Of a stretch of DNA of 33,254 nucleotides, positions 1 to 13,899 are shown one piece after another. The DNA is from Pseudolabrys sp. (GTDB taxonomy: Bacteria; Pseudomonadota; Alphaproteobacteria; Rhizobiales; Xanthobacteraceae). A model generated the notes under the pieces. That model saw nothing but the letters and a program-made list of their open reading frames with translations. It was not told the origin of the DNA and made no database searches. How positions within the stretch are numbered: the stretch's first letter is position 1; the number at the start of each line of letters is the position of its first letter. The stretch is from NCBI GenBank assembly GCA_030651965.1, contig JAUSBQ010000206.1:1-33254 (forward strand), given 5' to 3'. Both the position numbers and the translations under genes were made by a program.

Positions 1-1031
1 TTGCCTTCCTCGGTCGAGGCAAAGCCGCATTGCGGCGACAGGCAAAGCTGGTCGAGCGGCGCGAATTTCGACGCCTCGTCGATGCGGCGCTTCAACTCGT
101 CTTTCGATTCAAGCTTGCCGGATTTCGAGGTGACCAGGCCGAGCACCACCGTCTTGTCCTTCGGCAACAGCCGCAACGGCTCGAAGCTGCCGGCGCGGGC
201 GTCGTCATATTCCATGAAGAAGCCGTGGACATTGATCTTGTTGAACAGGATTTCCTGTACCGCCTCGTAGCCGCCGACGCCCATATAGGTCGATTTGTAG
301 TTCCCGCGGCACATATGCATGGTGATAGTCATGTCGGACGGAATGTCCGACATCGCCACGTTGATGAGATCGGCATAAAGCGTGCCGAGCTTTTCCGGGT
401 CGTCGCCACGCGCCGTCATCTGCTGGCGATATTTCGGATCGCACAGCATGGCGATGAACACTTCGTCGAGTTGCAGATAGCGGCAGCCGGCATCGGCAAA
501 GCCGCGCACGGCTTTCCTGTAGGCCTGGCCGAGGTCCTCGAACATGGCGTCGAGCGTCGGATAAACTCTCGCATCGACCGGCGGCTTGACCGGGCGGCCA
601 TAGAGCGCCGAGGGCGCGGGGATGGTGATCTTCGCCGTCTGCCCGGTGCGCGCGGCGAGAAACTTGAAATGCTCGATCATCGGGTGATGCGCCGAGCCGA
701 GCTTGCCGGTGACCTTGACACCTTCGTTGCGCGTGGTGACCGCGGCAAAGGCGACGCCGGTATCCATGACGTGTTTCTCGGCGCCATCGAGCCCCCAGAG
801 GAAATCGAGATGCCACCAGGAGCGGCGGAATTCACCGTCGGTGATCGACTTTAGGCCCACCTCTTCCTGCTTCTTGATGACGCGCTCGATCTCGCAATCC
901 TCGGCCGCTTTGAGCGCGGCGGCGTCGATCTCGCCCTTGGCGAATTTGGCGCGCGCCTCCTTGAGCGCGGCCGGACGCAGCAGACTGCCGACGTGGTCGG
1001 CACGGAACGGCGGTTTGGTGCGCATGCTCAT
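1..1031 (-). CDS. MetE/YxjG-like core methionine-synthase family protein, copy 4 of 4 (3' end cut by window edge)
   Basis: The frame is open from an ATG at 1031 to the window edge, giving about 343 residues and lacking roughly the last 30 seen in its neighbours. It begins with the family signature FRADHVGSLLR and has TDGEFRRSWWH, LQLDEV, the zinc motif MHMCRGN, the third-ligand segment FFMEYD and the last-ligand motif SPQCGF. These match the His-x-Cys, Glu and Cys zinc ligands of cobalamin-independent methionine synthase, but there is only the C-terminal catalytic barrel, as in Bacillus YxjG/YxjH. Family members move methyl or alkyl groups to thiols; epoxyalkane:CoM transferase is also a relative, so the acceptor here is unknown. 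It lies 5 bases after the stop of copy 3 and is probably co-transcribed and translationally coupled. GLKSITDGEF and LQLDEV group it with copy 3 rather than copies 1 and 2. Confidence 0.9.
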   Translation of the reverse strand, partial: MSMRTKPPFRADHVGSLLRPAALKEARAKFAKGEIDAAALKAAEDCEIERVIKKQEEVGLKSITDGEFRRSWWHLDFLWGLDGAEKHVMDTGVAFAAVTTRNEGVKVTGKLGSAHHPMIEHFKFLAARTGQTAKITIPAPSALYGRPVKPPVDARVYPTLDAMFEDLGQAYRKAVRGFADAGCRYLQLDEVFIAMLCDPKYRQQMTARGDDPEKLGTLYADLINVAMSDIPSDMTITMHMCRGNYKSTYMGVGGYEAVQEILFNKINVHGFFMEYDDARAGSFEPLRLLPKDKTVVLGLVTSKSGKLESKDELKRRIDEASKFAPLDQLCLSPQCGFASTEEG

Positions 1032-1036
1032 TGAAC

Positions 1037-2143
1037 TTACCCCCACACTTCTTCGGACACTTCGACGATCATGCGCAGCTTCGCCCACTGCTCTTCCTCG
1101 GCGAGGATATTGCCTTCCTCGGTCGAGGCAAAGCCGCATTGCGGCGACAGGCAAAGCTGGTCGAGCGGAATGAACTTGGCGGCCTCGTCGATGCGGCGCT
1201 TGAGTTCATCCTTCGATTCAAGCTTGCTCGACTTCGACGTGACCAGGCCGAGCACCACGGTCTTGCCTTTCGGCACGAACCGCAGCGGCTCGAAACCGCC
1301 GGCGCGTTCCGTGTCGTACTCCATGAAGTAGCCATTGACCTTGATCGTGTTGAAGAGGATTTCCGCCACCGGCTCGTAGCCGCCCGAGGCGACGAAGGTG
1401 GACTGGAAATTGCCGCGGCACAGATGCATGGCGATGGTCATGTCGTCGGGAATATCGGAGATCGCCGCGTTGATCATGCCGGCATAGATCATCGGCAGGC
1501 TTGAAGGATCGTCGCCGCGCCGCGCCACTTGCTCGCGCAGCTTCGGATCGCAGAGATACGTGAAATTCACTTCGTCGAGCTGCAGGTAACGGCAACCGGC
1601 ATCGGCGAAGGCGCGCACGGCTTGGGCGTAGGTCCGACCAAGGTCGCGGTAGAAGTCGCCCATGTCCGGATAGATGCTCTCCGGCACGGCGTCGCGGCCG
1701 TAGCGAAAGTGCAGCGACGACGGCGAGGGTAGCGTCATCTTCGGCGTCGCGCGGGTGTGCTCCTTGACGAACTTGAAATGCTCGATCATCGGGTGGCCGG
1801 AGAACGTGCCGAGCTTGCCTACGACGCGCAACATCATCGGCTTGGGATTGACGCCCTCGAACTTGATCTTGCGCTCGCCGAGATAGGCCTCGGCGCCGTC
1901 GAGCTGTCCGAGGAAATCGTAGTTCCAGAATGCGCGGCGGAATTCGCCGTCGGTGATGCTTTTGAGCCCGGCGTCTTCCTGCTTCTTGATGACGGCGATG
2001 ATTTCGCGGTCTTCGATTTCCTTCAGCGCCTCAGGCGTTATCTCGCCGCGCTCGCGTTGCGCCCGCGCCTGCTTCAGCGGCGCGGTGCGGAGAAGACTGC
2101 CGACGTGATCGGCGCGGAAGGGGGGTGACGTGCGGAACGTCAT
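1037..2143 (-). CDS. MetE/YxjG-like core methionine-synthase family protein, copy 3 of 4
   Basis: This encodes 368 residues. The open frame extends upstream to 2260, but the ATG at 2143 is chosen because it starts MTFRTSPPFRADHVG, collinear with the other copies, and because ATGA at 2143-2140 overlaps the stop of copy 2, a translational-coupling arrangement. Predicted zinc ligands are H240, C242, E275 and C336, in MHLCRGN, FMEYD and SPQCGF. The protein corresponds to the C-terminal half of full-length MetE (about 750 residues); the N-terminal folate-binding half is absent, as in YxjG and archaeal core-MetE proteins. Methyl donor and acceptor cannot be read from sequence. Given the O-demethylase and MetF-like genes close by, a role with methyl-THF-derived methyl groups is plausible but inferred. 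A 59-base block near the 3' end is identical to copy 4. Confidence 0.92.
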   Translation of the reverse strand: MTFRTSPPFRADHVGSLLRTAPLKQARAQRERGEITPEALKEIEDREIIAVIKKQEDAGLKSITDGEFRRAFWNYDFLGQLDGAEAYLGERKIKFEGVNPKPMMLRVVGKLGTFSGHPMIEHFKFVKEHTRATPKMTLPSPSSLHFRYGRDAVPESIYPDMGDFYRDLGRTYAQAVRAFADAGCRYLQLDEVNFTYLCDPKLREQVARRGDDPSSLPMIYAGMINAAISDIPDDMTIAMHLCRGNFQSTFVASGGYEPVAEILFNTIKVNGYFMEYDTERAGGFEPLRFVPKGKTVVLGLVTSKSSKLESKDELKRRIDEAAKFIPLDQLCLSPQCGFASTEEGNILAEEEQWAKLRMIVEVSEEVWG

Positions 2144-3246
2144 TGACCCCAGACTTCCTTCGACAATTCCACGATCATGCGCAGCTTGGCCCATTGCTCG
2201 TCCTCGGCCAGCACATTGCCTTCCTCGGTTGAGGAGAAGCCGCATTGCGGCGACAGGCAAAGCTGGTCGAGCGCGACATACTTGGTCGCCTGGTCGATGC
2301 GGCGCTTGATGTCGTCCTTGGATTCGAGCGTGCCGCTCTTCGAGGTGACGAGCCCAAGCACGAGCTGCTTGTTGCCCTTGGGGAAGTGGCGCAGCGGCTC
2401 GAAACCACCGGCGCGGTCGCTGTCATACTCGAGGAAATAGCCGTCGAGATTGGTGTTGCCGAGCAACTGCTCGGCGACGAATTCGTAGCCGCCTTGCGCG
2501 ATCCAGGTCGAGCGGAAATTGCCACGGCAGGAATGCATGGTGACCGCCATGTCGGCGGGTTTGTCCGCAAGGGCCTGATTGGTGATGCGCGCGTAAATCT
2601 CCGGCAGCGCGTCGGGGTTGTCGCCGCGCGCTTTGGAGCCCTCGCGCTCCTTCGGGTCGCAGATCATCGCCCAGGCGGTGTCGTCGAGCTGGAGATAGCG
2701 GCAGCCCGCGTCGTAGAAGGCGCGAATCGCCTTTTGCCAGGTGCGGCCGACATCGTCGAAGAATACGTCGAGATCGGGATAGGCCTCCGTGCTCACCATC
2801 GCCCGGCCCTGCCGGAAGTGAAACGTCGACGGCGCCGGGATCGTCATCTTCGGCGTGACGGCGCAGTTGTCCTTCAGAAACTTGAAGTGCTCGAGATGCG
2901 CGTGGCCGGCGAAGTCGACCTTGCGGTTAATCTTGATCGCCTCGCTCTTGGTGACGACGCCGTGAAACTTGATCGGCGGCGCTTCCACCAGATCGACGCC
3001 TTGCAGCCCGCGAAAGAAATCGAAGTGCCACCAGGAGCGGCGGAATTCGCCGTCGGTCGCAAGTTGCAGGCCGATTTCTTCCTGCTTTTTGACGACCTTG
3101 ATGATTTCCTCGTCTTCGACCTTCTTCAGCGCGGCCGCGTCGATCGCGCCTGAAGAAAATTTTGCGCGCGCATCCTTGAGGACGGCGGGGCGCAACAGAC
3201 TGCCGACATGGTCGGCGCGGAACGGCGGTGATTTGCGTTGCGACAT
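2140..3246 (-). CDS. MetE/YxjG-like core methionine-synthase family protein, copy 2 of 4
   Basis: This encodes 368 residues. The frame is open further upstream to 3363, but that stretch lies in the intergenic palindrome; the ATG at 3246 has a good ribosome binding site (AGGGAG at 3254-3259, minus strand) and gives the conserved start MSQRKSPPFRADHVG. Zinc ligands are H238, C240, E273 and C335. GLQLATDGEF, RRSWWH and DDTAWA pair it with copy 1 and separate it from copies 3 and 4, so the array looks like two pairs. It is separated from copy 1 by a 147-base gap holding a multi-hairpin repeat, and its stop overlaps the start of copy 3. Biochemical activity beyond zinc-dependent methyl or alkyl transfer to a thiol is not determinable. 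Confidence 0.92.
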   Translation of the reverse strand: MSQRKSPPFRADHVGSLLRPAVLKDARAKFSSGAIDAAALKKVEDEEIIKVVKKQEEIGLQLATDGEFRRSWWHFDFFRGLQGVDLVEAPPIKFHGVVTKSEAIKINRKVDFAGHAHLEHFKFLKDNCAVTPKMTIPAPSTFHFRQGRAMVSTEAYPDLDVFFDDVGRTWQKAIRAFYDAGCRYLQLDDTAWAMICDPKEREGSKARGDNPDALPEIYARITNQALADKPADMAVTMHSCRGNFRSTWIAQGGYEFVAEQLLGNTNLDGYFLEYDSDRAGGFEPLRHFPKGNKQLVLGLVTSKSGTLESKDDIKRRIDQATKYVALDQLCLSPQCGFSSTEEGNVLAEDEQWAKLRMIVELSKEVWGQ

Positions 3247-3264
3247 GAAACACTCCCTTTTTTT

Positions 3265-3388
3265 CTTATCCCTCCCCGTCTTCGGGGAGGGTGGACGCGA
3301 GCGTAGCGAGCGGCCGGGTGGGGTCGACGCGCTAACCCCACCCGGCGGCCTTACGGCCGCCACCCTCCCCCTTCGGGGGAGGGATAAG
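3265..3388. repeat. nested multi-hairpin palindromic intergenic element
   Basis: This fills the gap between MetE-like copies 1 and 2. The outer arms CTTATCCCTCCCC (3265-3277) and GGGGAGGGATAAG (3376-3388) are perfect 13-base complements. Inside are a central pair GCCGGGTGGGGT (3313-3324) and ACCCCACCCGGC (3335-3346), a short stem GGCGGCC (3344-3350) with GGCCGCC (3355-3361), and local stems at each end: CCCTCCCC/GGGGAGGG at 3270-3291 and a 9-base stem with a TTC loop at 3363-3383. The whole can fold as one long arm or several hairpins. Elements of this look are widespread between genes in Hyphomicrobiales. It may act as an mRNA-stability element or attenuator inside the operon, or be a non-autonomous mobile palindrome. 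Neither role is shown by sequence alone. Confidence 0.85.
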
Positions 3389-3393
3389 CGAAA

Positions 3394-4497
3394 CTACCTA
3401 CCCCAAACGACCTTGGAAATCTCGACGATCGCCTTGAGCTTGGCCCACTGCTCGTCATAGGCCAGCACGTTGCCTTCTTCGGTCGAGGCGAAGCCGCACT
3501 GCGGCGACAGGCAGAGCTGGTCGAGCGCGACGAACTTCTCGGCTTCCTTGATGCGCTTCTTGATGTCCTCGGTCGGCTCCAGCGTGCCGGACTTCGAGGT
3601 GACGAGGCCGAGCACGACCTGCTTCTTGCCCTTGGGCAGGAAGCGCAGCGGCTCGAAGCCGCCGGCACGGTCGGTGTCGTATTCGAGGAAGTAGCCGTCA
3701 TAATTGCACTTGGCCAGCATGCTTTCGGCCACCGGCTCGTAGCCGCCCGACGAAATGAAGGTCGAGCGGAAATTGCCGCGGCAGACATGCGTGGTGATGA
3801 CCATGTCGGCGGGCTTTGCTTCCAGCGCCTTGTTGATCATTTTTGTGTAGCTGTCCTGGAGATGATCGACGTCGAGGCCGCGGTCGCGCGCCTTCTTCAG
3901 CTCTTCCTGCGAGCACAGATAGGCCCAGGCAGTGTCGTCAAACTGCAGATAGCGGCAGCCGGCGTCGTAGAACGTCTTGACCGCTTTCTGATAGGCGATT
4001 GCCAGATCGTCGAAGATGGCGTCGCGGCTGGCATAGGCGGACTTCTCGACGGCATCCGGCTCCAGGCGAAAATGCATCACCCCCGGCGACGGAATCGTCA
4101 TTTTCGGCGTCACCTTGGTGTTCGCCTTGAGGAACTTGAAGTGCTCGATCATCGGGTGGTTCGAGAAGTCGATCTTGCCCGTGACGTGGATCGACCGGGC
4201 CTTGGTCAGGACGCCCTGGAACTGGATGCCCTTGCCGGCGATGATCTCGACGCCGTCGAGCCCGCCGAAGAAATCGTAGTGCCACCACGAGCGGCGGAAT
4301 TCGCCGTCGGTGGCAAGCTGCAAGCCGATCTCTTCCTGCTGTTTGATGACCTTGACGATCTCGGCGTCTTCGACGGCCTTGAGCTGGGCGTCGGTCATCT
4401 CGCCCTTTTCGTGTTTGGCGCGCGCGTCCTTGATCGGAGCGGTGCGCAGGAAGCTGCCGACATGGTCGGCGCGGAAGGGCGGCGTGGTGCGTTGCAT
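3394..4497 (-). CDS. MetE/YxjG-like core methionine-synthase family protein, copy 1 of 4
   Basis: This encodes 367 residues starting MQRTTPPFRADHVGSFLR at the ATG at 4497. Zinc ligands are predicted at H237, C239, E272 and C334 (THVCRGN, FLEYD, SPQCGF). It is first in the array and lies 38 bases after the stop of the GntR regulator on the same strand, so regulator and array may form one transcript, with the regulator perhaps controlling its own operon. The ribosome binding site is weak (CGAGG at 4504-4508). It shares GLQLATDGEF, RRSWWH and DDTAWA with copy 2. As with the others, only the catalytic MetE barrel is present. The reaction is probably zinc-activated thiol methylation; the thiol and the methyl donor are unknown. 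Confidence 0.92.
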   Translation of the reverse strand: MQRTTPPFRADHVGSFLRTAPIKDARAKHEKGEMTDAQLKAVEDAEIVKVIKQQEEIGLQLATDGEFRRSWWHYDFFGGLDGVEIIAGKGIQFQGVLTKARSIHVTGKIDFSNHPMIEHFKFLKANTKVTPKMTIPSPGVMHFRLEPDAVEKSAYASRDAIFDDLAIAYQKAVKTFYDAGCRYLQFDDTAWAYLCSQEELKKARDRGLDVDHLQDSYTKMINKALEAKPADMVITTHVCRGNFRSTFISSGGYEPVAESMLAKCNYDGYFLEYDTDRAGGFEPLRFLPKGKKQVVLGLVTSKSGTLEPTEDIKKRIKEAEKFVALDQLCLSPQCGFASTEEGNVLAYDEQWAKLKAIVEISKVVWGR

Positions 4498-4535
4498 AAG
4501 TGGCCTCGTTACTGAGTTTGCGTTGGTATCTGACG

Positions 4536-5306
4536 TTAATAGATGCCGGCTGCGACCGGCCGGCGGATGAGGACAGCTCCGGGCACGAGGTCGCGCGTAC
4601 CCTGAGTGCGGAGAGCCAATTGAAGGTTTCGATGCGCCAGCCGCGCGTGTTCGCGCATCAGCGCCTCGGCGCGGGTGCCCTCGCGCGCCTCGATCGCGCG
4701 CGTCACGCAGTGGTGATGATCCTGTGCGATGGTGAGAATCCGGCGCGCTTCCGGCAGCATCGCCTGCACCATGACAAAGCCGCTCGGCGAGGCGAACGGC
4801 AAATTGAGCGCACGCTCGATCTGGCGCGCCAGGACCGGGCTGTCGGCGGCGCTGATCAGCAGGGCGTGGAAATGCGCGTTGATTTCGACATATTCCGAGA
4901 AATCGTCGACGGTCAGGGTCGGCCGGGCGACCAGCGCGTCGAACTGCCGGAGATTGTCTTTCAACTCGGCCAGCACCGAACCCTGCACCCCGCGTTCGGC
5001 GGCGATCCGCGCCGCAAAGCCTTCCAGCGTGCCGCGCAACTCGATGGCATCGTAGATATCGCGCTCGGAAAACGCCTTGATGGCAAAACCGCCGGACGGG
5101 ATCGCTTCCAGAAAGCCCTCTTCCTCGAGGCGGACCAGCGCCATCCGGATCGGCGTGCGCGACATTCCGAGGCGTTCGACGATCGACAGTTCGGAAATGC
5201 GGTCGCCCGGCTTCAATTCGCCAGACAGGATCAGGTCGCGCAAGGAAAGCTGCGCCTTGACGGTCTGCGACGACGAGCGTTCGGTTTCAGCCGCATGGGG
5301 CGACAC
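4536..5306 (-). CDS. GntR-family transcriptional regulator, FadR/FCD subfamily
   Basis: With the GTG start at 5306 this encodes 256 residues. An N-terminal winged helix carries RDLILSGELKPGDRISE and the recognition region LGMSRTPIRMALVRLEEEG. A C-terminal all-helical FCD ligand domain shows ELRGTLEGFAARIAA, the metal-ligand-type NAHFHALL and a late His cluster (REHARLAHRNL). An ATG at 5435 is in frame, but the GTG is preferred. It has a strong Shine-Dalgarno (AAAGGGAGAA, 5311-5320), and the longer version would run through a CTGTATACAG palindrome better explained as an operator. FCD regulators usually sense small carboxylates; an aromatic acid would fit here. It is divergent from the O-demethylase gene and directly upstream of the MetE-like array, so it probably controls both. 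Confidence 0.92.
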   Translation of the reverse strand: MSPHAAETERSSSQTVKAQLSLRDLILSGELKPGDRISELSIVERLGMSRTPIRMALVRLEEEGFLEAIPSGGFAIKAFSERDIYDAIELRGTLEGFAARIAAERGVQGSVLAELKDNLRQFDALVARPTLTVDDFSEYVEINAHFHALLISAADSPVLARQIERALNLPFASPSGFVMVQAMLPEARRILTIAQDHHHCVTRAIEAREGTRAEALMREHARLAHRNLQLALRTQGTRDLVPGAVLIRRPVAAGIY

Positions 5307-5357: not shown

Positions 5358-5367
5358 CTGTATACAG
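5358..5367. promoter_or_regulatory. candidate GntR operator, site 1 (CTGTATACAG)
   Basis: A perfect 10-base palindrome lies in the divergent region between the GntR regulator (start 5306) and the O-demethylase (start 5587). Its core TGTATACA recurs at 5474-5481. GTATAC-centred palindromes are typical of FCD-subfamily GntR operators. Site 1 sits about 50 bases upstream of the regulator start, suiting autoregulation. The assignment to this regulator is inferred from proximity. Confidence 0.55.
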
Positions 5368-5473: not shown

Positions 5474-5481
5474 TGTATACA
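5474..5481. promoter_or_regulatory. candidate GntR operator, site 2 (TGTATACA)
   Basis: This is the second copy of the TGTATACA core, about 105 bases upstream of the O-demethylase start. The two cores are 115 bases apart centre to centre, close to 11 helical turns, which would place both sites on one DNA face. It could serve the plus-strand O-demethylase promoter while site 1 serves the regulator and MetE-like array. Confidence 0.5.
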
Positions 5482-5583: not shown

Positions 5584-6990
<1,407 letters not shown>

Positions 6991-7089: not shown

Positions 7090-7959
7090 TCACGTCATGG
7101 CATGGCTCGGGGCCATCCGTAGCGCCAGGTCATGCGCGTACCGCGCGGTGTTTTCGAAGCCGCCGAACGAAAAATAATGCGGCGCGATGGCGCCAAGACC
7201 GGCTGCGTTGGCAGCCAGTTCCTCGACGATCTTTTCCGGTCCGACATTGCCGAGCAGCCCGGCCGCGGCGCCGGAAGCCATGCCCCGCATCGACGCATTG
7301 ACGCCGCACAGCTTGGCATAACGCAACAAGGACTTGAAACTGGTTGGTCCGGCCAGGCCAACACGCACCGGCACCGCAATGCCCTGCTCGCGCAGACGCT
7401 TCAGCCAGGCCACGATCGGCGCTGCCTCGAAGGAAAACTGGCTGACGATATGGACGCCGAGACCGGCGTCGGCGGCGGCCTTCAATTTCGCCGGCAATGC
7501 CGCATCGAGCTTGCCTTGGTCGATGCGGGCATGGCCTTCGGGATAACCGCTGATGCCGATTGACTCGAACCCCGCCTCGCGCAGCCCGCCGCCACGAATG
7601 ACGTCCAGCGCGTCGGCATACGGCCCGGCCTGATCGACATCGCCGGCGATCACCAGCAGCGTTTTGACATCCCCCTCGCCGCGCAACCGGGCGAGAAAAT
7701 CGTCAAGCTCGGCCTTCGACGTCATACGCCGCGCCCCGACATGCACGACCGGCTCGAGACCCGCCCGCCGCGTTTCGGCCGCAAGCGCGGCCAGATCGGG
7801 CAGGGCCTGCGTCGGCACCGAGCTGAGATAGAGTTCGCGTCCGCGCCCGACGATAGCGGCAACGGCGGCGATCTCCGCGGGCTTGGGCCGCGTGGCCTCG
7901 ATCGTGTAGCCGCGCGCAAATCTGTCGGCGGGATCGGTGAAAGCTGAACTGTCTGACAT
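7090..7959 (-). CDS. metF: methylenetetrahydrofolate reductase-like protein (MetF family)
   Basis: This encodes 289 residues from the ATG at 7959, with an AGAGG ribosome binding site just upstream; the frame is open to 8022 but that part overlaps the upstream gene. Length and motifs fit the FAD-dependent MetF barrel: an early Glu in YTIEATRPKP (the FEFFPP position), LLVIAGDVDQ at the RGD position, and the family motif GYPEGH. MetF interconverts 5,10-methylene-THF and 5-methyl-THF. Beside an O-demethylase that produces 5-methyl-THF, it would plausibly run in the oxidative direction and return the methyl carbon to the C1 pool, as proposed for metF beside ligM in SYK-6. No formyl-THF synthetase (ligH) lies in the window. 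It is 17 bases downstream of the HTH-methyltransferase gene, probably one operon. Confidence 0.85.
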   Translation of the reverse strand: MSDSSAFTDPADRFARGYTIEATRPKPAEIAAVAAIVGRGRELYLSSVPTQALPDLAALAAETRRAGLEPVVHVGARRMTSKAELDDFLARLRGEGDVKTLLVIAGDVDQAGPYADALDVIRGGGLREAGFESIGISGYPEGHARIDQGKLDAALPAKLKAAADAGLGVHIVSQFSFEAAPIVAWLKRLREQGIAVPVRVGLAGPTSFKSLLRYAKLCGVNASMRGMASGAAAGLLGNVGPEKIVEELAANAAGLGAIAPHYFSFGGFENTARYAHDLALRMAPSHAMT

Positions 7960-7976: not shown

Positions 7977-9386
7977 TTATTCGCGTCGCCGCGAAATCAC
8001 GAATGACTCGTCGTAGAACCACAGGCCGCCGTGCTGCTGGAGCACCTCGCGGGTCGCTTCGGCAAACCGACGGTCGCTGTTGACGTCGCTGAGCCGGTCA
8101 TCCTCGACCTGCGCCACGTAGACCGCCGCGTTCCAGGCCGCCATCAGGGTCGAGGTTCCAATCGACGAAGACACCTCCGACGGCAACGTGTGCATCTCGT
8201 AGCGGAACAGCGAACGCTGATCGGAATAGGCGTTGAAGTTAAGGTCGCGCGCCGCCGACCCCAGCTCGTGTTTGGTCTCCTTCAGGAGATCGTGGCGGCT
8301 GTGCGAGAACGGATTGTCCTCGGGCCAGACTTTGTGGACGATCTCCATCGCCGGATCGTGGCCGTAGGACTGGATGGCAATCATGCGGCCGCCGGGCCCG
8401 AGCGCGCGCGCCAGCGGGGCAAGCACGCGCTTGGCCTTGAATTCGAGCGAGGCGCGGGCGCGATAAGGCTGCGAGGCGATGACGAGGTCGTAGTCGGCGC
8501 TGGTGCCGCCCGGCTTCGGGATGACCTGATCGAGCAGGAAGCGGTGGTCGTTGCGGTAGATCACCAGCACGACCGGACGCTCATAGACCGGGTTGCCGCT
8601 CTTCGGCGATACCTTGGCTTTCCAGCTTTCGGCGAGGAACGGCTCAAGCGCGGTGATCTGCTCCTCGAACGTATGGGCGGTGCCGCCGTCCATCGCCAGT
8701 TCTTTCCAGACCATGCTGGTCGCCGCCGACAGCGATTTCGCGGCCAGCCACGGCGCCTCGGCGTAGGCCAGATTGGTCAGCACCAGCACCGTCGACGGAT
8801 GTTCGACAAAGCGGTCGGCCATCTTGTGCAGTGTGAGGCGGACGTCTTCGAGACTGATCTCCTTGCCGACGATGTAGTGCGGCATGGTCGGGAAGCGATC
8901 GTGCATCGAGCGCATCACGCGCGCCAGCACGCTGCCGTCGCCGACGCCGGCGTCGAACACGCGCACGGCCGGCGGCCGCGGATGGATATTGGCAAGCTCC
9001 AGGCTGACGCGCTGGGCGACTTCCCATTTCTCGCTGCAGGTGTTGACGAACAGCAGATATTTCTGACGGTTGTCGAAGAAACGGAAATTGCGCTGCGGAT
9101 CGTCATCCGTCTCATTCGTGGCCATTGGCGGCGCCTGCGGTTTGATGATGGGGAGCGATTGCGCGGACGGCACGTCGAACAGCATGCGGCGCCGCGCAGG
9201 TGCGCCATCGTCGGTTTGCGACATGAAAGCGCGGATGCGCTCAAGCGTGTCGGTGGTGATGCGGCCGCCGTTGCGCAGGCGGCTGGCGAGCTTTCCATCG
9301 TTGACGGCGCGGCGGCCGAAAGTCGATTCGGCCAAACCGCGCTGGCGGCAGAATTCGCTGATCTCCTGGAGAATGACCTCGTTCAT
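7977..9386 (-). CDS. HTH-like domain plus SAM-dependent methyltransferase-like protein
   Basis: This encodes 469 residues from the ATG at 9386 (ribosome binding site GAGGAAAC). Residues about 10-55 look like a small helix-turn-helix: FCRQRGLAESTFGRRAV, then GKLASRLRNGG and ITTDTLERIRAFM. A proline-rich linker (about 60-90) leads to a region with a class I methyltransferase motif I, VFDAGVGDGSV (143-153), followed by an acidic strand end at GKEISLEDV and later LVIASQPYRA and ALGPGGRMIAIQSYG, consistent with a Rossmann-like methyltransferase. The substrate is unknown. A DNA-binding module on a SAM methyltransferase, co-directional with a MetF-like gene, suggests a role linked to methyl status, either as enzyme or as SAM-sensing regulator. 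That is inference; a plain enzyme with a non-DNA-binding N-terminus is possible. Confidence 0.75.
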   Translation of the reverse strand: MNEVILQEISEFCRQRGLAESTFGRRAVNDGKLASRLRNGGRITTDTLERIRAFMSQTDDGAPARRRMLFDVPSAQSLPIIKPQAPPMATNETDDDPQRNFRFFDNRQKYLLFVNTCSEKWEVAQRVSLELANIHPRPPAVRVFDAGVGDGSVLARVMRSMHDRFPTMPHYIVGKEISLEDVRLTLHKMADRFVEHPSTVLVLTNLAYAEAPWLAAKSLSAATSMVWKELAMDGGTAHTFEEQITALEPFLAESWKAKVSPKSGNPVYERPVVLVIYRNDHRFLLDQVIPKPGGTSADYDLVIASQPYRARASLEFKAKRVLAPLARALGPGGRMIAIQSYGHDPAMEIVHKVWPEDNPFSHSRHDLLKETKHELGSAARDLNFNAYSDQRSLFRYEMHTLPSEVSSSIGTSTLMAAWNAAVYVAQVEDDRLSDVNSDRRFAEATREVLQQHGGLWFYDESFVISRRRE

Positions 9387-9689: not shown

Positions 9690-10304
9690 TCAGATGTCGA
9701 AGAACACGGTCTCGTTGCCGCCCTGCACCCGGATATCGAAGCGGTACAGCGCCGGCTCGGTGCCGGCCTGCTTGTGGGCAAGGAGCGTGTCGCGCCGGTC
9801 CGCCGGCACAATCGTCAGGATGGGATCGGTGGCGTTGGCGGCTTCGTCGGCGAAATACAGCCGCGTATAGACCTGCCGCAGCATGCCGCGCGAGAAGATG
9901 CAGAAGACGATGTGCGGCGCCTGCGGTTTGCCGCCCGGTCCCGGCACCGCGCCCGGCTTGATGGTGTCAAAGGCGAAGACGCCGGCCTTGTCGGTGGCGG
10001 AGCGGCCGAAGCCCTTGAACTGCGAGTTCGGCAGCGCGCGGTTGTCGCGCGGACTGGCATACCGGCCCTGGCTGTCGGCCTGCCAGATTTCGATCATACA
10101 GTCGTTGATCGGCTTACCGTCACCGTCGAACACCGTGCCTTCGATGCGAATGCGGGCGCCGGAAGCATCCGGTGTCACCAGATTGGATTCGACGGTGTTC
10201 TTCCAGCTGTAGCTGCCGTTCGGGTCCCATTCGCAGCGGCCCTTGGGCGTGAGGCCATAGGCGAAGAACGGACCGACGGTTTGGGAAGGTGTTATTTCCG
10301 ACAT
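9690..10304 (-). CDS. pcaG: protocatechuate 3,4-dioxygenase alpha subunit
   Basis: This encodes 204 residues, the usual size for PcaG. It opens with TPSQTVGPFFAYGL, the alpha-subunit signature, and contains IEIWQADSQGRY and, near the C-terminus, ALYRFDIRVQGGNETVFFDI, again typical. Together with PcaH it forms the non-haem Fe(III) intradiol dioxygenase that cleaves protocatechuate to 3-carboxy-cis,cis-muconate in the cytoplasm. The alpha subunit lacks the full set of iron ligands, which the beta subunit supplies. It starts 15 bases after the pcaH stop and is last in the operon. Protocatechuate is the expected product of the O-demethylase at 5587-6990. Confidence 0.96.
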   Translation of the reverse strand: MSEITPSQTVGPFFAYGLTPKGRCEWDPNGSYSWKNTVESNLVTPDASGARIRIEGTVFDGDGKPINDCMIEIWQADSQGRYASPRDNRALPNSQFKGFGRSATDKAGVFAFDTIKPGAVPGPGGKPQAPHIVFCIFSRGMLRQVYTRLYFADEAANATDPILTIVPADRRDTLLAHKQAGTEPALYRFDIRVQGGNETVFFDI

Positions 10305-10319
10305 TATTTCGATCCGTTT

Positions 10320-11027
10320 CTAATGTTCGTCGTTGTCGAGCGGGGTCGCTTCGCGGCCGCGCAGCACGATGTCGAAACGGAAGGCGAGCGCCCAGTCGGG
10401 CACCGTGTTTTCCAGATCGAACGTGGAGATCATGCGCTGGCGCGCCTTGTCGTCGGTCACCGAATTGAAGATCGGGTCGAACGGGAACAGATAGTCGCCC
10501 GGGAAATACATCTGGGTGACCAGCCGCGACAGGAACGAGTGGCCGAACACCGAGAAATGGATGTGGTTCGGCCGCCAGGCATTGTGGTGGTTGCCCCACG
10601 GATAGGCGCCCGGCTTCACGGTGATGAATTTGTAATGGCCCTTGTCATCGGTGACGGTGCGGCCGGCGCCGGTAAAGTTCGGATCGAGCGGCGCCGGATG
10701 CTGATCGACGTTATGGACGTAACGGCCGCAGGCATTGGCCTGCCACAACTCGACCAATGCGTTCGGCACCGGACGCTTGTCCTCGTCGAGAACGTGGCCA
10801 TGCACGATGATGCGCTCGCCGAGCGGCTCGCCTTTGTGCTGTTTGGTGAGGTCGTTGTCGTCTTCCTGGATCGCGTCGTGGCCATAGACCGGGCCGGTCA
10901 GCTCCGACAAAGTGTGCGGCACGATCATCAGCGGCTTCGACGGTGAGCGCTTGAGGGTGCTCTTGTAGCCCGGGCTCAAGTGTTTGGGATAAGCCTCGAG
11001 GCTTTGCTTGGGATAGATCAGCGACAT
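10320..11027 (-). CDS. pcaH: protocatechuate 3,4-dioxygenase beta subunit
   Basis: This encodes 235 residues of the catalytic intradiol dioxygenase subunit. The four Fe(III) ligands are recognisable as Y103 (GRYVHN), Y142 (GAYPW), H155 and H157 (PNHIHFS). They sit a constant five positions before the Pseudomonas numbering Y108, Y147, H160 and H162. LVELWQANACGRY and YFPGDYLFPFDPI are standard family segments. It starts at the ATG at 11027 with AAGGA upstream, 15 bases after the pcaF stop, and is followed by pcaG. It catalyses ortho cleavage of protocatechuate. Confidence 0.97.
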   Translation of the reverse strand: MSLIYPKQSLEAYPKHLSPGYKSTLKRSPSKPLMIVPHTLSELTGPVYGHDAIQEDDNDLTKQHKGEPLGERIIVHGHVLDEDKRPVPNALVELWQANACGRYVHNVDQHPAPLDPNFTGAGRTVTDDKGHYKFITVKPGAYPWGNHHNAWRPNHIHFSVFGHSFLSRLVTQMYFPGDYLFPFDPIFNSVTDDKARQRMISTFDLENTVPDWALAFRFDIVLRGREATPLDNDEH

Positions 11028-11042
11028 TCTCGTAAATCCTTA

Positions 11043-12251
<1,209 letters not shown>

Positions 12252-12262
12252 ACTGTTTTCCT

Positions 12263-13033
12263 TTACGCCGCCGCATGAGCGCGGTTGGTGCGCGCGTGCA
12301 GTTCGCGCAGCACTTCTAGTTCCTGGGCCGTCGGCACCGGAGTCTCGTCGACCGTGGCGGCGAATTTGACCGGCCAGCCGGTGTTTTCCTGGATTTGTTC
12401 GCGGGTGACGCCGGGATGTATCGAGACGACCGTCATCTCCCGGGTCTCCGGATCGGGAGCCCAGATCGCGAGATCGGTGATCAACTTGGTCGGGCCCTTG
12501 GTCTTGACGCCCAATTTGGCGCGTGAATCGCCGCCGGAGACGTGGCCGATCGAGGTCACGAAATCGAGTTTGTCGACGAAGGATCGCTTGCCCTGCGCCA
12601 TGATGATAAAGATTTCGCTACAGGAGATGGCGATCTCGGGAGCGCCACCGCCGCCGGGCAGACGCACTTTCGGTTTGTCGTAAGGGCCGACCACCGTGGT
12701 GTTGAGGTTGGCGAATTTGTCGATCTGCGCGCCGCCGAGGAAACCGACCTTAATGCGGCCGCCTTGCAGCCAGTAGCGGAACATTTCCGGCACCGACACG
12801 GTCGTCAGCGCGGTGTCGCATAATTCGCCGTCGCCGATCGACAGCGGCAGCACCGTCGGCTTGGTGGCGAGCGTGCCGGATTCGTATATCAGCGTGATGC
12901 CGGGTGCATGAGTCAGGCGCGCGAGATTGCAGGCGGCGGACGGCTGGCCGATGCCGACGAAACATATGTCGTCGTTCTTGAGCGAGCGCGCCGCGGCGAT
13001 GGTCATCATTTCGGTCGGCTTGTAATCGGCCAT
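12263..13033 (-). CDS. pcaJ: 3-oxoadipate CoA-transferase beta subunit (CatJ/glutaconate CoA-transferase type)
   Basis: This encodes 256 residues from the ATG at 13033 (MADYKPTEMMTIAAARSL); the frame is open upstream but overlaps the alpha gene. It contains FVGIGQPSAACNLA, the active-site-like Glu in LIYESGTL, RYWLQGGRIKVGFLGGAQID and LPGGGGAPEIA. The size and features fit the CatJ/GctB type (about 259 residues) rather than the shorter PcaJ of P. putida (about 213). It transfers CoA from succinyl-CoA to 3-oxoadipate as a heteromer with the upstream gene, whose stop lies 5 bases before. Next to pcaF and pcaHG, 3-oxoadipate is the obvious substrate, though glutaconate-type relatives exist. Confidence 0.9.
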   Translation of the reverse strand: MADYKPTEMMTIAAARSLKNDDICFVGIGQPSAACNLARLTHAPGITLIYESGTLATKPTVLPLSIGDGELCDTALTTVSVPEMFRYWLQGGRIKVGFLGGAQIDKFANLNTTVVGPYDKPKVRLPGGGGAPEIAISCSEIFIIMAQGKRSFVDKLDFVTSIGHVSGGDSRAKLGVKTKGPTKLITDLAIWAPDPETREMTVVSIHPGVTREQIQENTGWPVKFAATVDETPVPTAQELEVLRELHARTNRAHAAA

Positions 13034-13038
13034 CGTCG

Positions 13039-13899
13039 TTACTCCGCCGCCGCTTTGTGTTTGCGCGCATATTGCGCGAAAGCCTCGGGGCCCTTGTCCA
13101 GCACGTTCGTCTTCATCCAGGCGTGGAAGCTGTCGCGGTCCTTCGCGATCTCGTCCCACTGCTTGTAGAAGCTATTACTGCGCGGGTAATAGCCTTGCGC
13201 ATAGGACGGAAAGGCGCCGCCCGGCACCGCGACGACGTTACCCACGGTCCAGTGCGGCAGGACGACGGCGTTGAGGCTGCGCTCGGGGAGTTCATCGACG
13301 ATCTCCTCGACCGTCACCACCGACCGCTTGGACGCCAGCACGGCCTCCTTCTGCACGCCGAGCACGCCTTCGATCATCACATTGCCGGCTCTGTCGGCGC
13401 GTTGGGCATGGATGATGGCGACGTCGGGACGGTGGGCCGGAATCGCGGCCAGTTCCTCGCCGGTGAACGGGCAGGTCACGCGCTTGATCTTGGCGTTCAC
13501 CTTGGGCAGGTCGCCGCCGATATAGCCGCGGAAAATCGCGCAAGGCAGGCCGGCGGCGCCGGCTTCGTAAGCATTGGCCATGGCGGCGTGCGAATGCTCT
13601 TCGATCTCAAGTCTGTGCGGCCAGCCGTTTTCGATCGCATCGCGAAACCGGTGCAGCGAGCCAACGCCCGGATTGCCGCCCCAGGAAAACACCAGTTTGG
13701 CGGCGCAGCCCATGCCGATCATCTGGTCGTAGACCAGGTCGGGCGTCATGCGGATCAGCGTGAGATTCTTGCGGCCCTGCCGGATGATCTCGTGGCAGGC
13801 GGCATGGGGGATGAGATGGGTAAAGCCTTCCAAAGCGATCGTATCGCCGTCTTGGACGGCGCCGGCGATGGCTTCGGAGAGTTTGGTGATACGCGCCAT
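13039..13899 (-). CDS. pcaI: 3-oxoadipate CoA-transferase alpha subunit (CatI/glutaconate CoA-transferase type)
   Basis: This encodes 286 residues starting MARITKLSEAIAGAVQDGD. It matches CoA-transferase alpha subunits of the CatI/GctA group: GDTIALEGFTHLIPHAA, LTLIRMTPDLVYDQMIG, KLVFSWGGNPGVGSLHRFRD and RADRAGNVMIEGVLGVQKEA. The usual P. putida PcaI is about 231 residues, so this is the longer class. It pairs with the beta subunit 5 bases downstream and is first in the operon I-J-F-H-G. The Shine-Dalgarno is unremarkable. The promoter must lie in or beyond the short 56-base divergent gap to the DUF3237 gene. Confidence 0.9.
   Translation of the reverse strand: MARITKLSEAIAGAVQDGDTIALEGFTHLIPHAACHEIIRQGRKNLTLIRMTPDLVYDQMIGMGCAAKLVFSWGGNPGVGSLHRFRDAIENGWPHRLEIEEHSHAAMANAYEAGAAGLPCAIFRGYIGGDLPKVNAKIKRVTCPFTGEELAAIPAHRPDVAIIHAQRADRAGNVMIEGVLGVQKEAVLASKRSVVTVEEIVDELPERSLNAVVLPHWTVGNVVAVPGGAFPSYAQGYYPRSNSFYKQWDEIAKDRDSFHAWMKTNVLDKGPEAFAQYARKHKAAAE

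Follow-up and report, generated by a model that had tools for sequence, protein, structure and literature searches.

Recurrent, diverged core-MetE paralogs in methoxyaromatic and protocatechuate gene clusters of one group of Alphaproteobacteria

Why would a bacterium keep four genes for what appears to be a single type of core methionine synthase in one row, next to a gene for the removal of methyl groups from aromatic compounds? The question is raised by a stretch of 33,254 nucleotides from a species of Pseudolabrys (hereafter the window, meaning the entire stretch analysed), which is one whole contig (G000:C334) of a draft genome in 468 contigs that is 90% complete. At the left end of the window four collinear genes of the core-MetE type, here termed C1 to C4, occupy the minus strand behind a single gene for a GntR-type regulator, and a LigM-type O-demethylase gene is divergent from them (Table 1). 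An earlier note, made from the sequence alone, had drawn attention to this layout, and the coordinates, the scores against the NCBIfam model NF005085 and the GntR and FCD domains of the regulator bear it out. Here we report that diverged core-MetE paralogs of this kind recur in methoxyaromatic and protocatechuate gene clusters of one group of Alphaproteobacteria.

All four copies exceed the curated NCBIfam cut-off of NF005085/PRK06520 (313 bits), with scores from 472.4 to 584.5 bits. C1 to C3 are complete, with 367-368 residues, and C4 is preserved as 343 residues, its C-terminus being lost at the contig end. C2 and C3 overlap by 4 bases, and a gap of 5 bases separates C3 from C4. C1 is separated from C2 by a palindromic intergenic repeat (window 3260-3393) with 18-base arms lying 98 bases apart and inner arms of 15 bases, which looks like a mobile intergenic repeat. 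Given that window bases 1-59 are an exact repeat of bases 1110-1168, the assembly probably stopped at a stretch common to two copies, and the count of four covers the array up to the contig end. Contig C294 of the same genome opens inside a MaoC gene, followed by genes for an acyl-CoA dehydrogenase (ACAD) and a CaiB-type CoA-transferase; this is the kind of order found after C4 in relatives, and hence the start of that contig matches the operon tail expected there. In locus L040 the order is C1-C2-C3-C4-MaoC, and its C4 is the nearest to that of the window in our tree. Seven more MetE-like genes lie outside the window on contigs C46, C48, C100, C117, C279 and C395 of the same genome, the one on C117 being 44% alike to C3.

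A single search with C3 as the query yielded 77 named loci, or 78 with the window. Many of these come from metagenome-assembled genomes of Pseudolabrys, Rhodoplanes, Pseudorhodoplanes and other Rhizobiales/Xanthobacteraceae, with further ones from Microvirga, Alsobacter, Beijerinckiaceae and a few others, the hosts being soil and water relatives of Pseudolabrys. Copy number ranges from one to five per locus; three to five copies are present in 38 of the 77 named loci and, with the window, in 39 of 78. Among the 38 named multi-copy loci the order C1-C2-C3-C4 is found in ten and C1-C2-C3-C3b-C4 in eight (18/38 together), the labels being assigned by best tblastn match and, for part of the copies, by placement in the tree. 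In this tree, built from 132 rows by a quick method, the window copies fall in four clades supported at 98-100 by the Shimodaira-Hasegawa-like approximate likelihood ratio test (SH-aLRT), each clade holding sequences from many loci (C1 19 rows, C2 20, C3/C3b 31 and C4 25). The occurrence of separate clades across many loci indicates that the duplications predate these lineages and that the lines stayed distinct thereafter; DNA identity among the window copies is only 67-71%. The suggestion of the earlier note that the copies are specialised rather than redundant thus gains support from these ancient clades. The two pairs that it had discerned are visible in the protein identities (64.0% for C1/C2 and 63.8% for C3/C4, with the remaining pairs at 57-60%), and the tree joins C3 and C4; C2, however, groups with C3 and C4 (SH-aLRT 81) and not with C1, although the support for this deeper branching order is weak. 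A distant MetE-like gene (MesBlike16, about 26-28% to C1) occurs in L026, L027, L039, L053, L055, L059, L067, L068 and L073; its L026 product scores 142 bits against the Pfam family Meth_synt_2, and in several of these loci genes for periplasmic binding proteins lie between the copies. A plasmid survey returned 227 records with relatives, all below 60% identity among the 60 of 227 matches listed.

What sets the four lines apart was examined in an alignment of 246 rows, comprising 223 rows of at least 330 residues from an earlier set of 225 and 23 rows from other loci; the earlier set consisted of 236 clustered copies less 11, namely nine without the start motif and two shorter than 200 residues. 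The zinc ligands H237, C239 and E272 are present in all 246 rows and the fourth, C334, in 244, and all four window copies keep the full His-x-Cys, Glu, Cys set, as had been noted before. Equally unchanged (246/246) are S15, E66 and D187, the equivalents of the homocysteine-binding Ser433, Glu484 and Asp599; the relevant passages of Price et al. (PMC7857596) name these zinc and homocysteine positions as functional residues of MetE and of the core synthases. In MetE, methyl-folate is bound by Trp539 and Glu583, which follow strands 3 and 4, respectively (PMC539065). Neither residue is kept at its aligned place in any of the 246 rows: the place of Glu583 is taken by Tyr (163 rows), Met (78), Phe (4) or Leu (1), and that of Trp539, near a one-residue alignment gap, by Phe (180), Gly (40), Tyr (24) or Val (2).

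Paralog-specific sites were sought in 164 of these rows (41 of C1, 38 of C2, 45 of C3 and 40 of C4), the other 82 including C3b copies and single-copy relatives; of the 31 tree rows in the C3/C3b clade, 21 belong to the C3 group. There are 151 sites that are conserved inside all four lines, 26 of which differ between lines. By alignment, residues 139-145 and 188-203 correspond to the pair of methyl-folate-binding loops of MetE, and with loop boundaries chosen after the sites were seen they contain 12 of the 26 paralog-specific sites as against two of the 125 others (Fisher p 4e-9). When the site labels were permuted over window pairs of the same size, combining the 15 best long windows each with every short one, none of 2000 permutations reached the observed count. 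An AlphaFold2 model of C1 (predicted local distance difference test, pLDDT, 87) has as its nearest solved fold 1YPX (template modelling score 0.80/0.92), followed by MetE and 3RPD, and places short helices at 138-144 and 190-193, following strands 133-136 and 183-188. With the acceptor residues unchanged and the divergence concentrated in the donor loops, the copies probably share homocysteine as a common acceptor and differ in their methyl donors. The proposal of the earlier note that aryl methyl groups are passed to different thiols finds no support here, and the invariant homocysteine residues speak against specialisation by thiol.

The gene neighborhoods offer a further indication of what these donors could be. 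Gene presence was judged by tblastn thresholds; as contig ends truncate many loci, the counts are lower bounds. A pca, LigM or VanA gene is present in 41 of the 77 named loci and in none of 20 arbitrary 20-kb regions of related genomes. Among the 39 multi-copy loci we found pcaG and pcaH in 17 each, ACAD in 25, CaiB in 23, the MetF homologue in 18, the conserved gene unk11 in 19, LigM in five and the GntR gene in four. Approached from the other side, 149 genomes of the family contain 18 LigM loci over the cut-off, and in 14 of them a PRK06520 gene lies no more than about 3 kb away; 12 of these neighbors are C1-type, and two are of a type about 52% alike that adjoins a different LigM. As for the other four, two are without PRK06520 in 13 kb, one is without it in the 7.5 kb upstream on its contig, and the fourth sits on a 4.5-kb contig. 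None of 13 LigM-like loci from other families in this class (eight of them over the cut-off) has a PRK06520 neighbor; one has a distant MetE-like match at 22%. Hence, the link between LigM and PRK06520 is real but local to this group. The connection to O-demethylation drawn in the earlier note therefore holds for the methoxyaromatic setting and for most family LigM loci, and fails for most multi-copy loci and for the other families; LigM as an obligatory partner is rejected on these counts together with a LigM-less array in the same genus, described below. The two families are paired a second time in L131 (3883-5109) and L133 (8271-9788), where a LigM of another type, about 55% alike, lies near a different PRK06520 protein (52% alike), accompanied by a periplasmic binding protein and a GntR gene.

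VanA and VanB homologues together with the GntR gene occur in 11 loci, ten of them single-copy and one an array locus (L080), the VanA_C domain having been checked in two of the 11. In Microvirga lupini vanA, vanB, the GntR gene, five liv-type transporter genes and the PRK06520 gene follow each other on one strand. Proteins with a VanA_C domain are present in 15 of 27 chosen genomes, namely in 11 of the 15 LigM-less genomes and four of the 12 LigM carriers (Fisher p 0.057), a weak hint that LigM and VanA-type demethylases may replace each other; the genome of the window has a VanA_C protein elsewhere, on contig C238. In eight more loci (L091, L103, L104, L107-L109, L113 and L115), six of which have a liv-type transporter gene and three of which are named Beijerinckiaceae, PRK06520 lies near pcaI/pcaJ homologues, and the fetched stretches have no LigM or VanA match. 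Downstream of many arrays, for example L032, L034, L042 and L178, there are genes for a short-chain dehydrogenase, MaoC, ACAD and a CaiB-type CoA-transferase, a set that suggests side-chain beta-oxidation of an acid.

The region between the GntR and LigM genes has two putative operator boxes, TGTATACA, which are the only copies of this sequence in the window. Over 98 loci (the window and L020-L116), the core TGTATAC is found in all 23 with a GntR ortholog of at least 55% identity, usually twice, as against seven of the 75 without one and two of 20 control regions. The boxes precede LigM in the window and its kin, stand directly before vanA in Microvirga and L080, and lie before pcaH in L097. 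Near less similar GntR genes, which are not counted in the 23, L122 has paired boxes, L130 has several and L133 has one; L131 has none, its contig breaking off within the GntR gene. It seems, then, that LigM in one lineage and VanAB in another are under an orthologous regulator, a PRK06520 gene being present in both; that vanillate is the inducer is a guess from the genes. Riboswitch control of the array was considered and rejected, as the window has no Rfam match at gathering scores.

The explanation that we tentatively prefer, as a serious possibility still open to substantial doubt, is that the copies are diverged, folate-independent core methionine synthases, specialised for their donors, within a regulated set of genes for methoxyaromatic catabolism. 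Each copy would be a zinc-dependent TIM barrel in which bound homocysteine is methylated on its sulfur, as the unchanged residues and the fold suggest, and each line, having fixed its own residues in the methyl-folate loops, would probably take a different donor. From the genomic context these donors may be aryl methyl groups, accepted directly or via a carrier, as vanillate-type compounds become protocatechuate. The LigM family yields 5-methyltetrahydrofolate (5-methyl-THF), and in the window LigM would supply the methyl group in this form with the MetF homologue alongside; in relatives its place is taken by VanAB, or the locus shows no demethylase. The GntR regulator, acting on the TGTATACA boxes, is predicted to switch LigM and the array together.

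Several observations weigh against this reading. The control regions were arbitrary ones and not matched catabolic loci, the markers were picked after the loci had been seen, and the 77 loci stem from one query and include many close kin, so that the counts are not independent. The aromatic markers are absent from 36 of the 77 named loci and from 14 of 20 further family loci (L135-L154, most of them single-copy, with a marker in six and a liv-type gene in 14). One of the 12 C1-type LigM neighbors, in G047, has an in-frame stop, and G091, of the same genus as the window, carries the array without LigM. A match to MetH was found in all 30 relatives searched (26 over the cut-off), which suggests that the array is probably not needed for methionine as such. 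VanAB releases formaldehyde, which is not a methyl carrier, and a methyl sink is therefore not obviously needed in Microvirga. The genome of the window has MetH in two fragments, both at contig ends; a role of the array as the sole methionine synthase of the cell is unlikely given the MetH matches in the relatives.

A link to methionine metabolism is visible in some single-copy relatives. In L137 such a gene lies near genes for S-adenosylmethionine synthetase (metK) and S-adenosylhomocysteine hydrolase (ahcY), as identified by Pfam, and by eye L138 is similar with both genes and L139 with metK, 5.6 kb away. In Lactobacillus paracasei (PMC6004538) a methionine T-box precedes yxjH, which shares a transcript with luxS and whose expression increases in the absence of methionine. 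These contexts fit homocysteine as the acceptor.

Other explanations start from the same facts. The 5-methyl-THF made by LigM might itself be the direct donor common to all copies, with the array serving as a sink for aryl methyl groups, and the proximity of PRK06520 to 14 of the 18 family LigM loci, the MetF homologue in many multi-copy loci and the common operator region would all agree with this. Yet the folate residues and the N-terminal barrel of MetE are absent, LigM is present in only 5/39 multi-copy loci, the kin have MetH, and one common donor leaves the fixed differences of the donor pocket unexplained, so that we consider it unlikely. The copies might instead be O-demethylases in their own right, in which a zinc-bound homocysteine thiolate would take the methyl group from aryl methyl ethers, one methoxyarene per copy; the products would be a phenol and methionine, and no corrinoid, folate, oxygen or radical would be involved. 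The donor-pocket divergence between copies would fit this. Such a role would also account for PRK06520 occupying the expected demethylase slot in the eight pcaI/pcaJ loci without a LigM or VanA match, and LigM itself transfers aryl methyl groups without a metal. However, we know of no direct demethylation of an aryl ether by homocysteine; aryl ethers are poor methyl donors, one methionine formed per substrate would need recycling, the Lactobacillus relative is tied to methionine supply, and in the eight genomes the demethylase may lie elsewhere, beyond the fetched stretches. This second alternative seems to us more doubtful still.

Activity toward other thiols or alkyl groups, in the manner of epoxyalkane:coenzyme M transferase, would be in line with the substrate diversity that tandem copies suggest, and that enzyme is assigned to the same superfamily in the pertinent section of PMC10418091; as the Ser/Glu/Asp amino-acid binding set is the same throughout the alignment, we hold it to be improbable. 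Least probable of all is plain tandem amplification, in which copies of redundant function are retained by dosage or chance: the variable copy number would be expected from it, but the supported clades common to many genomes, the fixed clade-specific residues and the low DNA identity between copies argue against it.

The preferred reading, donor-specialised core synthases, can be set against systems already described. The copies resemble YxjG/YxjH-type proteins (PRK06233/PRK06520, and 1YPX from Listeria) in fold, length and zinc and homocysteine residues, the match to 1YPX reaching 439 bits in phmmer over query residues 5-366 and 46% identity in the structural alignment; YxjG and 1YPX we take to belong to the PRK06233/PRK06520-type model. 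C1 fails the cut-off of NF004875/PRK06233 (401 versus 576 bits), and unlike the single, luxS-cotranscribed and methionine-controlled yxjH of L. paracasei, the paralogs described here stand in rows in aromatic gene clusters. In common with MesD and the other folate-independent synthases of Price et al. (2021) they have a C-terminal-type barrel only, keep the zinc and homocysteine residues and have no folate domain. They differ from MesD in that C1 scores 54.2 bits against a cut-off of 392 for PRK09121, and from the folate-dependent MetE in having a single barrel (C1 reaches 49.3 versus 930 bits for TIGR01371) and no Trp539/Glu583. PRK09121 is, we assume, the MesD model. MesX (PF08908) was found in none of 27 genomes, though the family matched in no control genome either. 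A ligM-metF arrangement occurs in sphingomonads, and LigM and the MetF homologue are likewise neighbors in the window; PRK06520 stands beside LigM here, unlike in the LigM-like loci of other families. As in VanAB operons, relatives of the GntR and array genes in Microvirga form a same-strand row with an oxygenase having a VanA_C domain, whereas the window has LigM at that place. In the open-access literature we found no earlier account of PRK06520 arrays or of a connection between them and O-demethylation, which is not proof that none exists.

Table 1. Positions of the core-MetE array, its putative operator boxes and the neighboring genes in the window
Feature	Position	Strand	Evidence
C1, core-MetE (PRK06520), first array gene	3394..4497	-	NF005085 584.5 bits; C1 clade SH-aLRT 100
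C2, core-MetE (PRK06520)	2140..3246	-	NF005085 569.4 bits; C2 clade SH-aLRT 99
C3, core-MetE (PRK06520)	1037..2143	-	NF005085 528.4 bits; C3/C3b clade SH-aLRT 98
C4, core-MetE (PRK06520), truncated at contig end	3..1031	-	NF005085 472.4 bits; clade SH-aLRT 100
GntR/FCD regulator	4536..5306	-	PF00392, PF07729; orthologs adjoin LigM, VanAB or pca genes
Putative operator box 1, TGTATACA	5359..5366	.	between GntR and LigM
Putative operator box 2, TGTATACA, 115 bases from box 1	5474..5481	.	between GntR and LigM
LigM-type vanillate/3-O-methylgallate O-demethylase	5587..6990	+	NF047885 735.8 bits, cut-off 580
MetF-like methylenetetrahydrofolate reductase homologue	7090..7959	-	PF02219 44.1 bits, cut-off 24
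unk11, conserved gene	7977..9386	-	without Pfam or NCBIfam match at the limits used
pcaG, protocatechuate 3,4-dioxygenase	9690..10304	-	TIGR02423 252 bits, cut-off 126
pcaH, protocatechuate 3,4-dioxygenase	10320..11027	-	TIGR02422 370 bits, cut-off 296
pcaF thiolase	11043..12251	-	TIGR02430 705 bits, cut-off 597
CoA-transferase subunits, pcaJ/pcaI-like	12263..13033, 13039..13899	-	PF01144 149.5, 80.6 bits

The divergent LigM-type gene, which begins just beyond the interval 1-5306 covered by the earlier note, was correctly recognized there: its product passes the LigM equivalog cut-off, fails the syringate DesA model NF047633 (666 bits, cut-off 800) and has as its best solved relatives the LigM structures 5X1I/5TL4 (702 bits). 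The MetF-like protein fails the cut-off of the equivalog TIGR00676. By eye, unk11 combines a helix-turn-helix-like start with a methyltransferase-like stretch; in the multi-copy loci that have it, it is retained close to MetF and the array, and in some single-copy loci it lies near metK; its predicted model is too poor to use (mean pLDDT 45). The two CoA-transferase subunits are presumably pcaI and pcaJ, the protein at 13039-13899 having no NCBIfam match at E 1e-20. Beyond them the plus strand encodes two acyl-CoA synthetases (PRK12582), a thiolase and a short-chain dehydrogenase. Further on, between 23694 and 32795, genes for two thiamine-pyrophosphate enzymes and an aldehyde dehydrogenase share one strand (plus) with those for a DctP-type binding protein and an amidohydrolase, possibly another catabolic gene set.

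For the PRK06520 type, to our knowledge, no methyl donor is known. That of MesD, the folate-independent methionine synthase of aerobes, is given as unknown in the pertinent part of PMC7857596. A naturally occurring set of paralogs that keep one thiol site but differ in their donor loops, standing beside genes that point to a likely source of methyl groups, makes the donor question directly testable. If aryl methyl groups do reach methionine by this route, lignin breakdown and the methionine cycle would be connected in a new way; were the copies to demethylate aryl ethers directly, lignin methyl would pass straight into methionine, and the array would cover a panel of plant methoxyaromatics as substrates.

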